Origin: a virus
Strand: one strand, 5' to 3'
DNA length: 40,161 nucleotides
IMG/VR virus record: IMGVR_UViG_3300047172_000311
Location: 1-40,161 of that record
Made by a program: the position numbers and the translations under genes. Below the pieces are notes generated by a model. That model was not told where the DNA came from. It was given only the letters and a program-made list of their open reading frames with translations, and made no database searches. This document shows, piece after piece, positions 932 through 25,032 of this stretch; within the stretch, counting starts at the first letter, position 1; every line of letters starts with the position of its first letter.

Positions 932-1245
932 GCACCCAAAAGCACACACCGGGACCGTGGCATTACCATCCGCTAGACCCAGTCAAGCCAGAATCCCTCT
1001 CGCTTCGGGGGCCTGATGACGAGCAGTTGGCGGCTGTATATCTGTGGGATTGGGAACCGGACGAGATGCAAGATGAAGCTCGCGCCAACGCTCGCCTGAT
1101 CGCTTCCGCACCGCAGCTTCTTGAGGCGCTGGAAATCTGCTACCAGCAACTCAAGGAGCTTACAGAGGAAGGAATGCACCTTGACGAAGCGATGGAGGTT
1201 TCCGCGGCGGCAATCGCAATGGCGACAGGAGCAACCCCGCGATGA
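928..1245 (+). CDS. Second 'HxPGPW' phage protein (paralogue)
   Basis: A 105-residue protein. The ATG at 928 overlaps the previous stop (ATGA), which is why this start is preferred over one further upstream. It begins with the same H-T-P-G-P-W-type motif and has A-N-A-R-L-I-A-S-A-P-Q-L-L-E-A-L in the middle, matching the protein at 252. The rest of the sequence has diverged, so the duplication is old. Function unknown. It directly precedes the integrase, with a 4-nt overlap. Confidence 0.75.
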   Translation: MSTQKHTPGPWHYHPLDPVKPESLSLRGPDDEQLAAVYLWDWEPDEMQDEARANARLIASAPQLLEALEICYQQLKELTEEGMHLDEAMEVSAAAIAMATGATPR

Positions 1246-2363
1246 AGGCCCTATACCGCGTAAAGCCGGTGGCGACCGGGCGCTATCAGGCCGTTGTCAG
1301 GTGGGAGGAGGGCGGCACGCGCCATCGGAAGTATTTCGATAAGGCGAGCAAGGCAAAGGCGTGGGCGGAAGCTCGCGCCATCGAGGCGCGCAATTCCGGT
1401 CTCGGGGTAATCGGGATGACGGACGAATTGCGCGTGCTGGCGATTCAGGGGCAGGAGGCGTGCGCGCCGTTCGGCAAGACTATCGCGGACGCCGTTGCCG
1501 TGGCGCTGGGCGTCTGGAAGGCACAAGCGGACTCCGTGAGCGTCAAAAAGGCCGTGGAGAGCCTTCTGGCGTCACGCGCCGGCCACAGCGTGCGGTATCG
1601 TCGCGACCTCGCGGAGCGCGTTGAGGGATTTGCGGGCGCGTTCGGGTATCGCCTGATTTCCAGCATCGCGCCGAAAGAGATTCGTGAATGGCTCCAGGGC
1701 TTGCCGGTCGGCGCGGTCAGCAAGAACAACGTGCGCAGGAATCTGAGCGTGCTCTTTGCCCACGCCATCGAAAGCGAATGGTGCCCGCGCGAGCGGGGCA
1801 ACATCATCAAGCAGGTGTCGCGCTTCAAGGAGCCGGTTGAGAAAATCGGCATCCTCACGCCAGACGAGGCGCGGAAGCTTCTTGCTGGCGCGCCAGCGCG
1901 CTTCGTGCCCTACCTGGCTATCGCGCTCTTCTGCGGCCCGCGGCGGTCCGAATTGGAACGCACGGAGGCCGCGTGCATCCGCTTCGATTCCGGCCTCGTT
2001 GAGTTGATCGTCACAAAGACCCGCGGGGCATCCCGGCGCTTCGTGAAAATGCGCGCGAACTGTCGCGCGTGGCTGGCGGCGTACCCGTTCGTGAAGCTGA
2101 CCGCGCAGCAATTCCGCAAAGACCTTGAGGCCGCTATCGAGACTGCTGGAATCCGGTCATGGCCGAATAACGCAACGCGCCACTCGTTTTGCTCCTACTC
2201 CCTGGCGCATGAGCGCGATGTAAACGACCTCACGCTTGAAATGGGCCACACGGACCCCGATACCCTCTTTGCCCACTATCGCGAGCTTGTGACGCCGGCA
2301 GATGCCCGGGAGTATTGGGGCATCAATCCTTTCGACCGCGCGGCGGCTATTGCTGCGGCGTAG
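1242..2363 (+). CDS. int: Tyrosine recombinase (phage integrase)
   Basis: A 373-residue site-specific recombinase, expected to integrate the phage at an att site. The N-terminal 60 residues look like the arm-type DNA-binding segment. A core-binding domain spans about 75-190 and the catalytic domain about 200-360. Visible catalytic residues are Arg234 (in C-G-P-R-R-S-E-L), Lys259, Arg313, His336 (G-H-T-D) and the nucleophile Tyr346. The box II motif reads N-A-T-R rather than the usual HxxR, so the first His is replaced by Asn310; this is tolerated in some family members. The ATG overlaps the upstream stop, making the integrase the last gene of a five-gene operon. Its 3' end overlaps the convergent gene at 2347 by 17 nt. 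No att core could be recognised. Confidence 0.93.
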   Translation: MKALYRVKPVATGRYQAVVRWEEGGTRHRKYFDKASKAKAWAEARAIEARNSGLGVIGMTDELRVLAIQGQEACAPFGKTIADAVAVALGVWKAQADSVSVKKAVESLLASRAGHSVRYRRDLAERVEGFAGAFGYRLISSIAPKEIREWLQGLPVGAVSKNNVRRNLSVLFAHAIESEWCPRERGNIIKQVSRFKEPVEKIGILTPDEARKLLAGAPARFVPYLAIALFCGPRRSELERTEAACIRFDSGLVELIVTKTRGASRRFVKMRANCRAWLAAYPFVKLTAQQFRKDLEAAIETAGIRSWPNNATRHSFCSYSLAHERDVNDLTLEMGHTDPDTLFAHYRELVTPADAREYWGINPFDRAAAIAAA

Positions 2364-9848: not shown

Positions 9849-10970
9849 ATGAAAGAACAATTCAGAGAGCTACCGATGCGCCGCGCTACGCTGGCGATGA
9901 TCCATAAATGCAACGAGATAATTGAGGATTTTCAAGCGCAAGGTTACACCCTGACGCTTCGGCAACTCTATTATCAAATTGTCGGACATGACCTTTTCCC
10001 GGATGACAGGAAGTGGCGATGGACTGGCGCGAAGTGGGTTCGTGATGCGAACGGCACGAAGAACGCGCAGCCGAATTACAAATTCCTTGGCGATATTATG
10101 AACAACGCTAGGCTCGCCGGACTTGTCGATTGGGATGCCATCGAGGACAGGACGCGCAGCCTACGCGGGGTGAGTCATTGGGAAAAGCCATCCGATGTTA
10201 TCAAGTCTGCGGCCAACTCATTCCGAATCGACAAATGGGCATCGAAATGGGGCCAGAGGCACCGCATTGAGGTATGGGTGGAGAAAGACGCGCTGGCGGG
10301 CATTTTAGACAAGGCGTGCCGTCCGTTGGACGTTGATTACTTCTCTTGCCGCGGGTTCACTTCGCAAAGCGCGGTTTACGGGGCTGGAAAGCGCCTGGCT
10401 TACTACATCGAGCAAGGGCAAGAGCCGGTAATTATTCACCTTGGCGACCACGATCCGTCTGGAGTGGACATGACGCGGGACATTATTGCCCGGCTGGAAA
10501 TGTTCGTTGGTCAGCCAATCGAGGTTAAGCGAGTGGCGCTCAATATGGATCAAATCAGGCACTACAACCCGCCTCCAAACCCTGCAAAAAAGACCGATTC
10601 AAGGTATGATTCTTACCGCAGAACGCATGGGGATGATTCCTGGGAGTTGGATGCGCTTGATCCTGCTGTAATCGACAATCTGATAACTGACCAGGTGTTG
10701 GCCTGCCGCGATGAGGAGGCATGGGCAAAAGCTTTGGCGCATGAGGATGAACAGCGCGCATTGCTGTCGATTGTGTCTGGCCGATGGGGTGACGTTTCGG
10801 GATTGCTGGTAAACGACGAAATACCGGCGCTGTTGCGCGAGCGACTGTCAGAGGAAATGACACCCGGGATTCGGGAGAAGCTTACCCCGGAAATTCGTGA
10901 AATGGTTACCGAAGAAATCTTCGATACCTTGTTGCCTGCCCCTGAGCATCAATATGGGGAGTATTATTAG
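9849..10970 (+). CDS. Topoisomerase VI subunit A-like protein (Mini-A type)
   Basis: A 373-residue protein with the domain order of Spo11/TopoVI-A. The winged-helix (5Y-CAP) part has L-T-L-R-Q-L-Y-Y at residues 35-42, corresponding to the catalytic R-x-I/L-Y-Y motif. A Toprim domain follows with Glu145 (V-E-K-D-A) and the D-x-D pair Asp200/Asp202 in H-L-G-D-H-D-P-S-G. W-E-L-D-A-L at ~265-270 also matches the family. No TopoVI-B-like ATPase is encoded nearby, so this is an orphan A protein like the phage Mini-A group. It may cut or recombine DNA rather than act as a full topoisomerase. The C-terminal ~70 residues are acidic and helical. The leader is A/C-rich without a Shine-Dalgarno sequence. 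Confidence 0.82.
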   Translation: MKEQFRELPMRRATLAMIHKCNEIIEDFQAQGYTLTLRQLYYQIVGHDLFPDDRKWRWTGAKWVRDANGTKNAQPNYKFLGDIMNNARLAGLVDWDAIEDRTRSLRGVSHWEKPSDVIKSAANSFRIDKWASKWGQRHRIEVWVEKDALAGILDKACRPLDVDYFSCRGFTSQSAVYGAGKRLAYYIEQGQEPVIIHLGDHDPSGVDMTRDIIARLEMFVGQPIEVKRVALNMDQIRHYNPPPNPAKKTDSRYDSYRRTHGDDSWELDALDPAVIDNLITDQVLACRDEEAWAKALAHEDEQRALLSIVSGRWGDVSGLLVNDEIPALLRERLSEEMTPGIREKLTPEIREMVTEEIFDTLLPAPEHQYGEYY

Positions 10971-11691
10971 TGCTCACCTATGCCACGATATTTTCAGGCA
11001 TGGGAGGATGGGAAGTTGGCCTCAATGCCTGCGGGTGGAATCTGCTTTGGCAATGCGAGCAAGAGCCGTATTGCAGGGCGCTTCTAAAATCGAGATTCGG
11101 CGTTCCAGTGTATAACGATGTCCACACCTTACTTGAATCCCCCCCCCACGACCTGATGTGCTTGTCGGAAGCCCTCCTTGTCAGCCTTTCAGCATTGCCG
11201 GGGAACAATGTGGCCTTGCCGACGAAAGGCACCTTTATCCGGCCTTCATTAACGCCGTGCGCGCACTTCGACCACGCTACGTGCTCATGGAGCAAGTCTC
11301 AGCAATTATTGCCGATGGGCGAGCTTTTGGGGAATATCTCTCCGGATTGGTCGCGCTCAGGTATGATTCTGTCTGGCATTGCCTACCAGCTTGCGCCGTT
11401 GGCGCGCCTATCCAAAGAGACAGAGTGTGGATTATTTCCAAGTCCAACGAAGTCGATGGGCAAACGAGGGTGGGGCCTGAGCAAATCAGGAAGAGCCCGA
11501 TACAGTCCTATAATCCGAGAGAACGCATTCCGTTTTGGTTACAAGCCACCCGTCAGTTTATTGGAGTGGATAATGGGTTTCCCGATCAATTTTACAATGA
11601 TCGAGTATCAGCCGTCGGAAACGCCGTGTGTCCGCAAATCCCGCAAATCATCGGGGAGGCAATCAACGCCATCGAAGGACTCGCAGCATGA
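10970..11691 (+). CDS. C5-cytosine methyltransferase, split in two frames at a C9 tract
   Basis: Starting at GTG 10970, the first frame encodes motif I (F-S-G-M-G-G at residues 8-13) through about residue 57. The remaining motifs continue in the -1 frame after the C9 run at 11139-11147: the catalytic P-P-C-Q-P-F-S (motif IV), M-E-Q-V (motif VI), Q-R-D-R-V-W-I-I (motif VIII) and V-G-N-A-V-C-P-Q (motif X). With 7 or 10 Cs the two halves join into one protein of about 240 residues that reads smoothly through motif IV. The state could be phase-off, expressed by -1 ribosomal slippage on the C run, or a homopolymer sequencing error. The target recognition region between VIII and X is short (~45 residues). 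It may protect phage DNA from host restriction. Confidence 0.8.
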
Positions 11692-11701
11692 CGCACCCTG
11701 A
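10970..11701 (+). CDS. Zero-frame product overprinted on the methyltransferase
   Basis: If no frameshift occurs, the frame that begins with methyltransferase motif I stays open for 243 codons, to a stop 10 nt beyond the methyltransferase stop. Its later part is not random-looking. W-S-R-S-G-M-I-L-S-G-I-A-Y-Q-L, then C-G-L-F-P-S-P-T, and finally L-L-E-W-I-M-G-F-P-I-N-F-T strongly recall a common phage family ('SGTAYxLPPLVPRTS...LLPTPT...EWLMGFPxGWT'), usually found with phage cytosine methylases. The same nucleotides encode motifs VI-X in the -1 frame. Both frames may therefore be real (overprinting). The resemblance is from memory and needs a profile search. Confidence 0.45.
   Translation: MLTYATIFSGMGGWEVGLNACGWNLLWQCEQEPYCRALLKSRFGVPVYNDVHTLLESPPHDLMCLSEALLVSLSALPGNNVALPTKGTFIRPSLTPCAHFDHATCSWSKSQQLLPMGELLGNISPDWSRSGMILSGIAYQLAPLARLSKETECGLFPSPTKSMGKRGWGLSKSGRARYSPIIRENAFRFGYKPPVSLLEWIMGFPINFTMIEYQPSETPCVRKSRKSSGRQSTPSKDSQHDAP
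11139..11147 (+). repeat. C9 homopolymer tract
   Basis: Nine consecutive C residues lie exactly where the methyltransferase changes frame. Tracts of this length are typical slippage sites for phase variation, and a run of CCC codons can also support -1 ribosomal frameshifting. Confidence 0.95.
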
Positions 11702-20167: not shown

Positions 20168-20515
20168 ATGAAGAACTTCATTGCCTCGATTCTAGTTGCT
20201 CTCGCGCTTGCCGGCATCATCACTCCTCCGGTTGCCGTTGCGCAGGCCCCATTTCAGCCCGCCGTACCGGGCGCGGTGACCAACTATGTCAACAGCTACT
20301 TTCCGGCTGTTGTGCAGTCCGGCACCTTCGCGCTGACCTCCGGCACTGCGTATGTATCAGGCACTTCCGTTGCCACTGGCGATGTCGTCATTTACACGCC
20401 TGTCACCAGCGCGACCACGGGCTGTTTTACATCCGCGCTCCAGAGCGGGACCGGATTTTCGGTCGGCAGCACGGCGACCACCGGCACTTACGAGTACCTC
20501 GTTCTGCTTCCGTAA
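20168..20515 (+). CDS. Small protein with signal peptide, head region
   Basis: A 115-residue protein with a typical Sec signal peptide: basic M-K-N, a hydrophobic core to residue ~24, and a likely cleavage after A-V-A-Q-A. The mature part is Ser/Thr/Gly-rich and beta-like (T-S-G-T-A-Y-V-S-G-T-S-V-A-T-G-D-V-V-I-Y-T-P). A short beta-rich protein at this place is usually a capsid decoration protein, but a signal peptide on one would be odd. The function is therefore open. Confidence 0.65.
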   Translation: MKNFIASILVALALAGIITPPVAVAQAPFQPAVPGAVTNYVNSYFPAVVQSGTFALTSGTAYVSGTSVATGDVVIYTPVTSATTGCFTSALQSGTGFSVGSTATTGTYEYLVLLP

Positions 20516-20558
20516 CTCTTTCGAAATTACCTCCGTGCTGAAAATCGGTCAAGACCGC

Positions 20559-22517
20559 ATGCGTGAATCCACCCCCGCCGAGGGGGAGCGGACTCGCGCG
20601 CTAAGTGCCTCCATTCGCAAGCGGGATGACGGCGGCATTGATATGTCGTTTTCTTCCGAGCGGGAAATCGAGGTATATCCCGGCGAGTACGAGGTACTAA
20701 GTCACGATCCTGGCGCGTGCGACCTCTCCCGCCTCCAGGCATCCGGCCTCCTGCTATTCAATCACAACCGCGACTTTCCGCTTGGCCGCCTCGATAGCGT
20801 CAGGACCGACAGCGACAAGATGGGTCGATGCAGCGTGCCAACTGAGGCCCGCAGTCAATCCGCTCCCGCGCAGGAGATTTGGAAGGATATTGACGCCGGC
20901 GTGCTTCAAAATACATCCGTTCGCTACAAGGTCCAGGCGTACACTCAGGAGAAGCGCGCGGACGGCAGCATTCTTTACCGGGTGACTAAGTGGCAGCCCT
21001 CCGAAGTCTCCATTGTCACCATTCCCGCAGATATTTCGACCGGCGTAAGTCGCGCCGATAACACCACAGAAAACAGCAATATGCCCATACGCAATCGTTA
21101 TCAACGCCGGTTCCTTGAAACAGACACCGGAGCCAATGCAACCACCGGCACGGGGCGCGACCCCGCGCCCGCCGCTCGCTTCGTCGCGAATGACGCAAAC
21201 CCGGAGGCCAATTTTGACGAGCTTCAACGCGCCGCCAACGGCGCGGCTGCCGCGGAGCGCACCCGGCTGGCCTCGATCCTCGAAGCGTGCCGGACTTACA
21301 ACGCCCCCGAGATCGCGGAGCGCGCCTTCCGCGAGAACCTGAGCCTTGAGGCCGTTCGCGGTCTCTTGCTGGAACAGGTGAATCAGCGCAACGACACGCT
21401 GAGCCAGTCTACCAATCCGGTCGGCATGACCAATGCGGAGGCGTCCCGCTTCCGCTTCATGAACCTCATCCGAGCGCTGAGCGATCCGACCAACCCGCGT
21501 GTCCAGGAATCCGCGAGGCTGGAACTCGAAGCGTGCCGCGCCGCAGGCGACCAGGTGAAACACCGCTCCCTCAAGGGTCTGATGATTCCCACGGACGTTC
21601 TGCTTGCGCCCCTCAACGGCGGAAATCGCCAGCGCGACAACGCTATCTCCGTACAGGGCGGCCCGGGTTACACCGGCGACGGCGGCAACGTCATCGCGAA
21701 CACGCTGCTCGCGTCGGCCTTCATCGAGATTCTGCGGCACAAGTGCGTCATCATGCAGCTTGGCATGCAACTTGGCGGCCTGATTGGCAATTTCGAGATT
21801 CCCAAGATGACCTCCAGCCAGTACGGTGGCGGGTGGATTGGTGAAGATTCGGTTGCCCCGAATACGCAGGTCGATTTCGGGCAGATTCCGCTCATGGTGA
21901 AAACCGCTGCGGCCTATGCGTACATCACCCGCAAGATGCTGACCCAACCGAGCATTGGCGTGGAAGCACTCGTGCGAAACGACATCGCCAAGAAGCTCGC
22001 GCAGCTTATCGACCTGGCCGGCTACTACGGCACGGGCAACGCCAACGACCCCGTTGGCCTCAAGAACACCAACGGCATCAATGCCGTGCAGTTTGCCGGC
22101 GCGCAGCCGACATACCTTGAGTTGGTTAACATGGAAACCCGCATCGCGTTGGATGACGCGGATGTTGACACCATGGCCTATGTCGCCAACGCGGCCTTCC
22201 GCGGCTACGCCAAGGGCACACTCAAATTCCCGGCTGCGGCCATCCCGCAGGGCGGCACCATTTGGGAGCCCGGAAAGACTGTCAACGGCTATAACTGCCC
22301 GATCACCAACCAGGTTGTCACCGGGGATTTGTTCTTTGGTAACTTCTCTGACCTGATTATTGGCATGTGGGGCGGGCTCGAAATCCTGGCCGATCCCTAT
22401 ACGAAGTCCACGCAGGGCGGCGTCATCGTGAGCGCCTTTCAGGATACCAACTTCGTCGTGCGCCGCGTGCAGAGCTTCTGCTACGGAAATCAGAACGCCG
22501 TTGCCAACCAGGCGTAA
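20559..22517 (+). CDS. Prohead protease - major capsid protein fusion
   Basis: A 652-residue polyprotein from ATG 20559 (an in-frame GTG lies at 20535). Residues ~1-165 are an S78-type prohead serine protease with catalytic His69 (L-L-L-F-N-H-N-R-D) and Ser120 (V-L-Q-N-T-S-V-R-Y). A linker of ~125 residues (helical, scaffold-like) leads to an HK97-fold capsid domain from ~300, with G-L-M-I-P-T-D, G-G-N-V-I-A-N-T-L-L-A-S-A-F-I-E, F-E-I-P-K-M-T and F-V-V-R-R-V-Q-S-F at the end. The protease is expected to cut itself and the scaffold away during maturation. There is no clear Shine-Dalgarno sequence at either start. Confidence 0.9.
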   Translation: MRESTPAEGERTRALSASIRKRDDGGIDMSFSSEREIEVYPGEYEVLSHDPGACDLSRLQASGLLLFNHNRDFPLGRLDSVRTDSDKMGRCSVPTEARSQSAPAQEIWKDIDAGVLQNTSVRYKVQAYTQEKRADGSILYRVTKWQPSEVSIVTIPADISTGVSRADNTTENSNMPIRNRYQRRFLETDTGANATTGTGRDPAPAARFVANDANPEANFDELQRAANGAAAAERTRLASILEACRTYNAPEIAERAFRENLSLEAVRGLLLEQVNQRNDTLSQSTNPVGMTNAEASRFRFMNLIRALSDPTNPRVQESARLELEACRAAGDQVKHRSLKGLMIPTDVLLAPLNGGNRQRDNAISVQGGPGYTGDGGNVIANTLLASAFIEILRHKCVIMQLGMQLGGLIGNFEIPKMTSSQYGGGWIGEDSVAPNTQVDFGQIPLMVKTAAAYAYITRKMLTQPSIGVEALVRNDIAKKLAQLIDLAGYYGTGNANDPVGLKNTNGINAVQFAGAQPTYLELVNMETRIALDDADVDTMAYVANAAFRGYAKGTLKFPAAAIPQGGTIWEPGKTVNGYNCPITNQVVTGDLFFGNFSDLIIGMWGGLEILADPYTKSTQGGVIVSAFQDTNFVVRRVQSFCYGNQNAVANQA

Positions 22518-22633
22518 TCCTCAAACGACCGAAAGCACTACCGCCGGCAAAGCGTATTTGTAAGTAGGTCAAAACTTTAACCGTCCGAAAGCCATAATTC
22601 CGGTCGCCACAAAAGAATGTGCCTCGCCCTCAC

Positions 22634-22656
22634 GCGGAACCCTTCGGGGAATTCGC
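22634..22656 (+). other. UUCG-tetraloop hairpin in the capsid-tRNA gap
   Basis: In the 198-bp gap 22518-22715 the sequence folds as GCGGA / CCC-TTCG-GGG / TTCGC with a small internal loop. No T-run follows, so a terminator is unlikely. It could stabilise or mark the 3' end of the very abundant capsid mRNA before tRNA processing. Otherwise nothing is seen in this gap. Confidence 0.35.
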
Positions 22657-22715
22657 AATCGGGTCCAGGAAATGGCGGTGCGACTTGGGGTGCAAGTAGG
22701 ACGCAGTTTTCAAAA

Positions 22716-22789
22716 CGCAGCGTAGAGCAGTCCGGTAGCTCGCTTGGCTCATAACCAAGAGGCCGAAGGTTCAAATCCTTCCGCTGCAA
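22716..22789 (+). tRNA. tRNA-Met(CAU) with initiator-type features
   Basis: A full cloverleaf is present. Acceptor CGCAGCG/CGCTGCA pairs except at position 1, giving C1xA72. The D stem GAGC/GCTC has an A11:U24 pair. Anticodon stem CTTGG/CCAAG surrounds the loop CTCATAA (anticodon CAT at 22750-22752). The variable loop is 5 nt and the T arm is GAAGG-TTCAAAT-CCTTC. C1xA72 and A11:U24 are hallmarks of bacterial initiator tRNA. The anticodon stem has only two G:C pairs next to the loop instead of the canonical three. CCA is not encoded (CGA follows A73). It sits inside the late operon, 10 nt before a small ORF. Confidence 0.92.
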
Positions 22790-22798
22790 CGATTTTCT

Positions 22799-22948
22799 AT
22801 GAAACTCAAAATCAAACTCCTCGATACCGTCATGCTGGGCGGCAAGATGCTTGGCTCTGGCACTGTTGTTGAATGCGGCAGGAGCCTCGCCAACGACCTT
22901 GTTGCGCGCGGGCTGGCGAAGCTCTACGAGGAGCCCGCGAAGAAGTAG
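22799..22948 (+). CDS. 49-residue phage head-region protein
   Basis: A small gene that begins 10 nt after the tRNA. The product has a beta-rich start (K-L-K-I-K-L-L-D-T-V-M-L-G-G-K), then G-T-V-V-E-C and D-L-V-A-R-G-L-A-K. This matches the common tiny phage proteins with 'G-x-x-V-x-(L/V)...A-x-x-L-(V/I)-x-R-G-x-A' that lie between capsid and connector genes. Role unknown. Its stop is 15 nt before the next gene. Confidence 0.75.
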   Translation: MKLKIKLLDTVMLGGKMLGSGTVVECGRSLANDLVARGLAKLYEEPAKK

Positions 22949-22963
22949 TAAGGCCACCCCGCC

Positions 22964-23410
22964 ATGTCTATCATTGCCACCATCGAAGGACACGACATCA
23001 CGTTGAATGATGACGGCTCGATTACTTACACGGCCAAGGCGGCGATTGACGATGATGGCACGGGGCCGGCGCATGGCGATCCCTGCGAGCAATCGGACAC
23101 CAGCCTTCACCTGAATGGCGAGCCGCTGAATGCGGACGTGGATCGCTACATTGTCGTGCCTCCCGCGATCATCGAGGGCGTGCAAGGCATCGTACTTGGA
23201 TGCCGGGCTGTTGTGAGTTACAACGGAGCAACCACAGAGGCCGTTGTTGGCGATGTTGGCCCGCGTTCCAAGCTCGGGGAAATCAGCATTGCCACGGCCA
23301 AGGCGCTCGGGATTCCATGGAGCCCAATCAGCGGCGGCGTGGATAGCGGCGTGAGTTATACCCTGTGGCCTGGCATTCCTGCGCCCGGGTACAACCTGCA
23401 AGCGGCATGA
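22964..23410 (+). CDS. GH75 chitosanase-like protein
   Basis: A 148-residue protein. The second half (V-V-G-D-V-G-P-R-S-K-L-G-E-I-S-I-A-T-A-K-A-L-G-I-P) matches the conserved centre of glycoside hydrolase family 75, with Asp97 and Glu106 as candidate catalytic acids, nine residues apart as I recall for fungal GH75 enzymes. GH75-like domains occur in phages, where they may cleave cell-wall or surface glycans. It lies between capsid and connector genes, is not obviously exported, and is shorter than secreted chitosanases. It could be a virion-associated hydrolase or the missing endolysin; neither is proven. Confidence 0.6.
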   Translation: MSIIATIEGHDITLNDDGSITYTAKAAIDDDGTGPAHGDPCEQSDTSLHLNGEPLNADVDRYIVVPPAIIEGVQGIVLGCRAVVSYNGATTEAVVGDVGPRSKLGEISIATAKALGIPWSPISGGVDSGVSYTLWPGIPAPGYNLQAA

Positions 23411-23754: not shown

Positions 23755-24260
23755 TGGACAAGCTCGACATCCGCTTTGACTGGCAGCACGGCGCGCTCAA
23801 GGGGCTCGACGCCGCGCCGGCGCGCATCAAGCTGGCGATGAAAAACGCGATTACCAGCGTCACGCAATGGGCGCGCGTCCAGGTGCGCCGCGAGGTATCC
23901 AAGGCCACGGGTGTTCAACTACGGGTCATCCAGGGCCGTATGCACATTACTGTGCGGGATAACTTCGGGTGGATTTGGGTTGGGCTCAATCCTATCTCCG
24001 TGCGCCGTCTCGATCCGAAAGTAGTAAGCGGCGGCGTGCAGGCCGCAGGCCGATTCTTTCCCGATGCCTTCATTGTCGGCGGCGATGGCCCGCTTGCCGG
24101 CCAAGTTATGGTGCGCAAGGGCGCAGCCCGGCTGCCGATCCAAAAGCAGACCGTGGACATCCAGAAGGAAGGCGAGGCCGCGGTGAGGCGTATTTCTGAG
24201 CAGGTCAACACGCGGCTTTACACGGAATTCTCCCGGCAAATGGAGCGTATTGCGGCCTAG
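23754..24260 (+). CDS. Minor tail protein Z-like (tail completion)
   Basis: A 168-residue protein that resembles the GPZ/tail-completion family. It has an N-terminal helix with I-T-S-V-T-Q-W-A-R-V-Q-V-R-R-E-V-S-K-A-T, then L-R-V-I-Q-G-R, W-I-W-V-G-L-N-P-I, and F-I-V-G and M-V-R-K-G strands followed by R-L-P-I. It probably finishes the tail end that docks to the head. The neighbours are the connector upstream and, unusually, a glycosyltransferase downstream. Confidence 0.75.
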   Translation: MDKLDIRFDWQHGALKGLDAAPARIKLAMKNAITSVTQWARVQVRREVSKATGVQLRVIQGRMHITVRDNFGWIWVGLNPISVRRLDPKVVSGGVQAAGRFFPDAFIVGGDGPLAGQVMVRKGAARLPIQKQTVDIQKEGEAAVRRISEQVNTRLYTEFSRQMERIAA

Positions 24261-24291
24261 ACCGATTTCAAGCAAACCCAGTAATCAACCA

Positions 24292-25032
24292 ATGAACTAC
24301 AGCCACCAAACAAACCCATCAGTTTACACGGCGGACGCACTCCGGATAGAGGCGGTAACCGCATGCGTCGGATTCGATGACATGCTCGACGCGACGTTGA
24401 CGCTAAACCACCCGCAACTCGACACGATGATTGTGGTCACCAGCCACGATGACCGTGCCACTCAGCAGGTAGCACAAAAGCACGGCGCGATTTGCGTCCA
24501 GACGGACCTTTTCAAAAAGAATGGGCGATCCTTTAACAAGGGCGCGGCGCTCAACGCAGGCATGGGGCATTTTCAGTATCACGGATGGAGGCTGCATCTG
24601 GACAGCGATATTGCGTTGCCGGATAACTTCCGCCGTCTGCTCTTCAATGGCACACATCTGGATACCTCGTGTATCTACGGAGCCGACCGTGAGGACGCTA
24701 TTGGCACAGCCGAATTACAGGGCTCGATTACCCCGCAGCATCAGGGCGGCGCGTTTCTCTTCCCGCCCGGAAATAGACCAATCAGCCCGCGCTATGTGGA
24801 CGCCCTCCGTGGTTACGTTCCGATCGGGTTCTTCCAGTTGTGGCACGCATCCACTCAGAAGCCCTATCCGTACAGCCTCGGTACTGCCGCGCATGACGAC
24901 GTGCTCTTTGCGGAGCAGTGGCCAGCTTCCTGCCGCCGCCATCTGCCTACCGTGATTGTCCGGCATCTGTGCTCCGTGCCGCCGAGCCTCGGGGAGAATT
25001 GGGACGGCCAGCGCGGGCAACCTCGCCTCTAA
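24292..25032 (+). CDS. Family 2-type glycosyltransferase
   Basis: A 246-residue enzyme with a GT-A fold pattern. T-M-I-V-V-T-S-H-D-D (~45-54) is the nucleotide-sugar strand, followed by N-K-G-A-A-L-N-A-G (82-90) and the metal-binding D-S-D (104-106) in L-H-L-D-S-D-I-A-L-P. A later G-G-A-F-L-F-P segment and H-D-D-V-L-F-A form the acceptor-side motif. The sugar and acceptor cannot be read. It is inserted between tail-completion genes, starting after a 31-bp gap with an A/C-rich leader, and shares one base with the next gene. It may decorate virion proteins or the host surface. There is no signal peptide or membrane anchor. Confidence 0.85.
   Translation: MNYSHQTNPSVYTADALRIEAVTACVGFDDMLDATLTLNHPQLDTMIVVTSHDDRATQQVAQKHGAICVQTDLFKKNGRSFNKGAALNAGMGHFQYHGWRLHLDSDIALPDNFRRLLFNGTHLDTSCIYGADREDAIGTAELQGSITPQHQGGAFLFPPGNRPISPRYVDALRGYVPIGFFQLWHASTQKPYPYSLGTAAHDDVLFAEQWPASCRRHLPTVIVRHLCSVPPSLGENWDGQRGQPRL

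Follow-up and report, generated by a model that had tools for sequence, protein, structure and literature searches.

Genomic context of the tRNA gene

The window, meaning the whole stretch of DNA analysed here, spans 40,161 bp and is a complete virus record. It carries the gene set of a temperate myophage, with a tyrosine integrase, RecT, terminase, portal, protease/major head protein, neck, sheath and tape measure. The only tRNA gene of the record, a tRNA(CAU), lies on the plus strand at 22716-22789. The principal features are as follows:

1242-2363, plus strand: tyrosine integrase, which marks the phage as temperate
20352-22517, plus strand: major head protein fused to a protease domain, upstream neighbour of the tRNA; true start uncertain
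22518-22715, plus strand: stretch of 198 nt between the capsid stop codon and the tRNA
22716-22789, plus strand: initiator-type tRNA(CAU), positions 1-73, CCA not encoded (sequence, ARAGORN, RF00005, HMMs)
22799-22948, plus strand: 49-aa ORF, downstream neighbour of the tRNA, 45% identical to the ORF found in the corresponding position of locus L102

The placement of the tRNA inside the late operon, proposed in an earlier note made from the sequence, was confirmed: the major head protein gene precedes it, a small conserved gene follows with its start codon 9 nt downstream, and all flanking genes are on the plus strand. The reading frame that crosses the tRNA on the minus strand (22577-23401) is probably spurious, an antisense ORF.

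A search between 20100 and 24300 turned up nothing resembling a promoter, and nothing resembling a terminator adjoins the tRNA. A promoter or terminator of its own was rejected on that basis, and the simplest assumption is that the gene is cotranscribed with the late operon. Gene order and the absence of such sites thus suggest that the tRNA would be produced together with the capsid mRNA. The 198-nt stretch upstream has no counterpart in L102. It gave no match to any Rfam family, and folding of the whole gap was not better than that of shuffled sequences (z = +1.17); a structured RNA or a second tRNA in this stretch was rejected on the latter two grounds.

Shine-Dalgarno sites are few, as the earlier note had observed. 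A match to at least four bases of AGGAGG precedes 9 of the 52 predicted genes, compared to 11% of non-start ATGs. With matches near background and many G-poor leaders, the window suggests a host in which translation initiation mostly does without Shine-Dalgarno pairing.

Two further regions were noted. A cytosine-methyltransferase-like reading at 10970-11691, recognised by eye from its SPPCQPF motif, is split over the frames 10970-11701 and 11158-11691 as if frameshifted; the first of these gave no Pfam match. Among the neck and tail genes, a 260-aa ORF (24250-25032) resembles a glycosyltransferase by eye only and has no PHROG or Pfam match.

Structure and initiator identity of the tRNA

ARAGORN, one of the checks suggested in the earlier note, called a tRNA-Met(CAT) at 22716-22790 (+) in the window. 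The Rfam model RF00005 reached 66.8 bits at 22716-22789 (gathering score 29, E = 1.4e-12), a score that rules out a chance fold. The parts of the tRNA, all on the plus strand and assigned from the sequence, are as follows:

22716-22722: 5' acceptor strand; C1 at 22716 stands opposite A72 at 22788, a mismatch
22725-22741: D arm; stem GAGC/GCUC with A11:U24
22743-22759: anticodon arm CUUGG-CUCAUAA-CCAAG; U29 at 22745, A41 at 22757, anticodon CAU at 22750-22752
22765-22781: T arm
22782-22788: 3' acceptor strand, followed by A73 at 22789

Position 1:72 has no Watson-Crick pair (C1xA72, by sequence and RF00005) and is followed by G2:C71 and C3:G70. The D stem places a purine at 11 and a pyrimidine at 24, both as in initiators. 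The determinants of formylation are C1xA72, G2:C71, C3:G70 and A11:U24 (PMC7949028), and every one of them is present. The anticodon stem consists of C27:G43, U28:A42, U29:A41, G30:C40 and G31:C39 and closes a CUCAUAA loop; the run of three GC pairs at 29-31:39-41 is therefore broken by U29:A41. A73 is encoded and CCA is not, the next bases downstream being CGA.

The tRNA scored 50.5 bits with an initiator HMM and 31.3 bits with an elongator HMM; both models were built here and are small (22 distinct bacterial chromosomal initiators and 12 elongator-type CAU tRNAs, respectively), and each identity call comes from a single tool, ARAGORN or these HMMs. Elongator Met or Ile2 identity was rejected given positions 1:72 and 11:24 and the HMM scores. 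The tRNA is of the initiator type, in agreement with the earlier note.

In a single-strand energy model, an alternative anticodon hairpin was predicted at -25.0 kcal/mol versus -24.8 kcal/mol for the cloverleaf, unlike the E. coli and rhizobial initiators, which fold directly into the cloverleaf. The hexamer ACGCAG of the 5' acceptor strand occurs twice within 22701-22722, 15 nt apart, once just upstream of the tRNA and once in it. The upstream copy could rival the 5' strand for pairing with the 3' acceptor strand.

Anticodon stems of chromosomal and phage initiators

Chromosomal initiators were tallied by hand with a pattern that fixed the D arm and the loop, left the anticodon stem free and was read at 29-31:39-41. 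The controls span five groups and 320 matches. Verrucomicrobiota initiators were AGG:CCT, i.e., A29:U41, in all 88 of 88 cases. The 104 alphaproteobacterial matches comprised 102 AGG:CCT, one AGG:TCT and one TGG:CCA, giving A29:U41 in 103. The GGG:CCC type dominated in the phylum of Caloramator (33, with 2 AGG:CCT), the class of a Legionellales genome (30, with 1 AGG:CCT) and the phylum of a Bryobacteraceae genome (54, with 1 AGG:CCT), and it accounted for the 7 further chromosomal initiators. These two stem types cover 318 of the 320 chromosomal matches. The only chromosomal TGG:CCA stem (U29:A41, 1/320) sits in a Mesorhizobium prophage with the gene order ParB, NusG-like antiterminator, tRNA, HNH, TerS, TerL, portal, protease, capsid.

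The viral set comprised the 138 distinct initiators among the matches listed from two pattern scans; it is non-random and may include sequences of chromosomal origin, whose sole effect would be to weaken the contrast between phages and chromosomes. U29:A41 was found in 29 of these 138 listed matches, and Caulobacter phages RB23, CcrSC and CcrColossus, Sinorhizobium phage phiLM21 and Mycobacterium phage PegLeg carry it as well. Stems outside the two chromosomal types made up 57/138 of the viral initiators listed versus 2/320 of the chromosomal ones (Fisher's test, p = 1e-31, a value that overstates certainty because related sequences are not independent). U29:A41 is thus enriched in phages and almost never present in the bacterial chromosomes sampled.

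Among the viral matches listed, position 29:41 was always paired (A:U 74, G:C 35, U:A 29), 31:39 was G:C in 111/138 and 30:40 was G:C in 135/138. An AGC:GCT type, with C31:G39 flipped and A29:U41, was present in 15 of the 138 and absent from the chromosomal sample. An alignment of 33 phage initiators, which was chosen to include many with U29:A41 and in which the search pattern dictated an invariant D stem, gave a stem covariation score of 0.545 compared to 0.155 for shuffles, while 1:72 was unpaired in 29 of the 33. Covarying stems together with an open 1:72 position indicate that phage initiators are under selection as initiator tRNAs.

The earlier note had read the reduced GC stem as a phage modification. 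It was correct that the stem has two GC pairs where E. coli has three, and U29:A41 does look phage-like; however, the two-GC stem in itself is common. Two large bacterial groups normally have such initiators, so the difference from E. coli does not demonstrate modification by a phage.

The three GC pairs are termed highly conserved in all domains of life in a review (PMC7949028). In our comparison, two large bacterial groups and the majority of the phage initiators sampled break this rule at 29:41, whereas the middle pair is fixed. On the ribosome, A1339 of the 16S rRNA makes a type I A-minor contact with G30:C40, and G1338 makes a type II contact with 29:41 (PMC11497404). The viral stem variation fits this picture, and the difference between the two contacts may explain why U29:A41 is tolerated. 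These natural variants offer a way to test which pair is read by the ribosome, IF3 and initiator-cleaving toxins. The single gene studied here is ordinary among phage initiator tRNAs; the stem comparison that came out of it is the useful part.

Relatives of the gene and recurrence of its placement

The best matches of the tRNA were other phage initiators (67/74 positions), and Verrucomicrobiota initiators reached at most 57/74. Phage initiators are nearer than the bacterial ones compared, which argues for a phage history. As the gene also lies in a phage genome among phage genes, the phage origin assumed in the earlier note was borne out. It is a real gene that adds to the initiator tRNAs already known from phages.

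The nearest relative of the phage, L102, has a capsid protein 70% identical to that of the window. Only 59 bp separate its counterparts of the capsid gene and the 49-aa ORF, and there is no tRNA at that junction, so either one lineage acquired the tRNA with its flank or the other lost them. No initiator tRNA was found in about 85 loci retrieved via the terminase or capsid protein, many of which end before the site, and conservation of the tRNA at this site in related phages was rejected accordingly. The closest terminase (50% identity) and capsid protein (46%) in any bacterial genome belong to one Verrucomicrobia MAG, and these identities are too low to assign a host.

Placement of an initiator tRNA at the start of a late operon or inside it recurs in phiLM21, RHph_TM3_3_3, the Mesorhizobium prophage and Erythrobacter phages ZS04 and R6L. 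In RHph_TM3_3_3 the tRNA adjoins a NusG-like antiterminator, and in the two Erythrobacter phages an initiator-like tRNA lies between the terminase and portal genes. The latter are unannotated tRNA(CAU) genes with C1xA72 but C11:G24 (L347:3001-3077 in ZS04, L358:2001-2077 in R6L). The tRNA-Met of phiLM21 (L346:5995-6071) is on the minus strand in GenBank; by both ARAGORN and its sequence it lies on the plus strand, like the late genes. A scan of 83 proteins flanking phage initiators returned 4 NusG-like antiterminators, 3 HNH nucleases, 3 integrases and 2 small terminases, and a fixed gene neighbourhood is weak by this count. E. coli also expresses an initiator tRNA from a protein operon, metY-nusA-infB, according to a statement quoted in PMC8522696.

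Possible function of the tRNA

We consider it probable (roughly 0.6) that the tRNA is a working supplementary phage initiator, made with the late transcript, that tops up the initiator pool. It would be transcribed with the head genes, released by host RNase P and by enzymes that trim the 3' end, and completed by CCA addition. Host MetRS would then charge it and Fmt formylate it, and on entering the common pool it could raise or restore initiation capacity during peak expression of capsid and tail genes. U29:A41 would be tolerated because the ribosome reads 29:41 via a type II A-minor contact, while G30:C40, with the type I contact of A1339, is kept. We counted in favour of this reading the formylation determinants, the HMM scores, the covariation with an open 1:72, the strand shared with the late genes, the lack of promoter-like or terminator-like sites nearby, the recurring late-operon placement, the retention of G30:C40 and the E. 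coli example of metY. Counted against it were the missing CCA, the slight preference of the energy model for another hairpin and the lack of the gene in L102. The further suggestion of the earlier note, that such a tRNA tilts initiation toward phage messages, was not upheld. One initiator pool serves all messages of a cell, the 30:40 pair, the most strictly conserved of the stem, is preserved, and nothing specific to particular messages was found.

The stem divergence would also be explained if the phage initiator replaced a host initiator cut by a VapC-type toxin and its altered stem made it a poor substrate. VapC enzymes cut initiator tRNA in the anticodon arm (PMC8522696), and phage tRNAs have been proposed to resist anticodon nucleases (PMC10264068). 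However, the loop of the tRNA is the canonical CUCAUAA and the differences lie in the stem, whereas nuclease-evading phage tRNAs in the sense of PMC10264068 are altered in the anticodon loop, at the cleavage site; phages are also reported to generally avoid tRNA-fMet where VapC-LT2 is present (PMC10264068). The enrichment of non-chromosomal stems among the viral matches listed (57/138 versus 2/320) speaks for nuclease evasion, which we regard as possible but doubtful. A broader form of the idea is equally tentative: phages may keep a separate pool of initiator tRNA genes whose stems have departed from the two chromosomal types at 29:41 and 31:39, with G30:C40 fixed, to escape host factors that recognise the anticodon arm of the host initiator, such as VapC-type nucleases, and placement at or in late operons would sustain initiation during capsid making.

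Three other explanations are less likely than either a supplementary initiator or nuclease evasion. A recently captured passenger gene without effect would agree with its absence from L102 and the other related loci that reach the site, but all stems are intact and the nearest tRNAs are phage initiators (67/74), making this unlikely. The tRNA fits exactly between two cistrons, with 9 nt left to the next start codon, which would suit a role as RNA punctuation: its removal would split the late transcript after the capsid gene and determine how stable the capsid and downstream messages are relative to each other, the tRNA product being of little importance. Any tRNA would serve that purpose, yet initiator determinants are kept here and across the phage class, and we consider this role improbable as well. 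Least probable, and very unlikely, is tRNA-dependent lysogeny, in which the integrase disrupts the host initiator gene and the phage copy stands in. The window does encode a tyrosine integrase and the mechanism is known for other isotypes (PMC10865867), but a tRNA in the late operon with no promoter-like site near it is expected to be silent in a lysogen. Elsewhere in the window there is no match of at least 12 bases to its own initiator or to three reference initiators, and cores of about 10 bp are indistinguishable from chance. The shared sequence in known systems of this kind is only about 10 bp long. Prophages of the phiLM21 type that carry tRNA-fMet use other tRNAs as attachment sites and rebuild these (PMC12429752).

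Comparison with known systems

Caulobacter phages RB23, CcrSC and CcrColossus share A11:U24, CUCAUAA, U29:A41, G30:C40 and G31:C39 with the tRNA described here, and the anticodon stem of RB23 is identical (CUUGG/CCAAG). In contrast, these are giant lytic phages that encode CCA and have U at position 1, and no capsid gene adjoins their initiator tRNAs in the stretches read. Sinorhizobium phage phiLM21 and phiLM21-like prophages (PMC12429752) are temperate, like the phage described here, and have a lone initiator-type tRNA that carries U29:A41 beside the late operon. The phiLM21 tRNA differs in lying between NusG-like/HNH and terminase genes, in its CGUGG/CCACG stem, in G at position 1 and in its encoded CCA. 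Erythrobacter phages ZS04 and vB_EliS_R6L likewise have a tRNA(CAU) with C1xA72 inside the head operon, but with a GCGC D stem (C11:G24) and a 28:42 mismatch in the anticodon stem. The E. coli initiator, about 78% identical, shares C1xA72, A11:U24 and the CUCAUAA loop, and differs in G29:C41, which completes its three GC pairs (PMC7949028), in its chromosomal location and in its encoded CCA.
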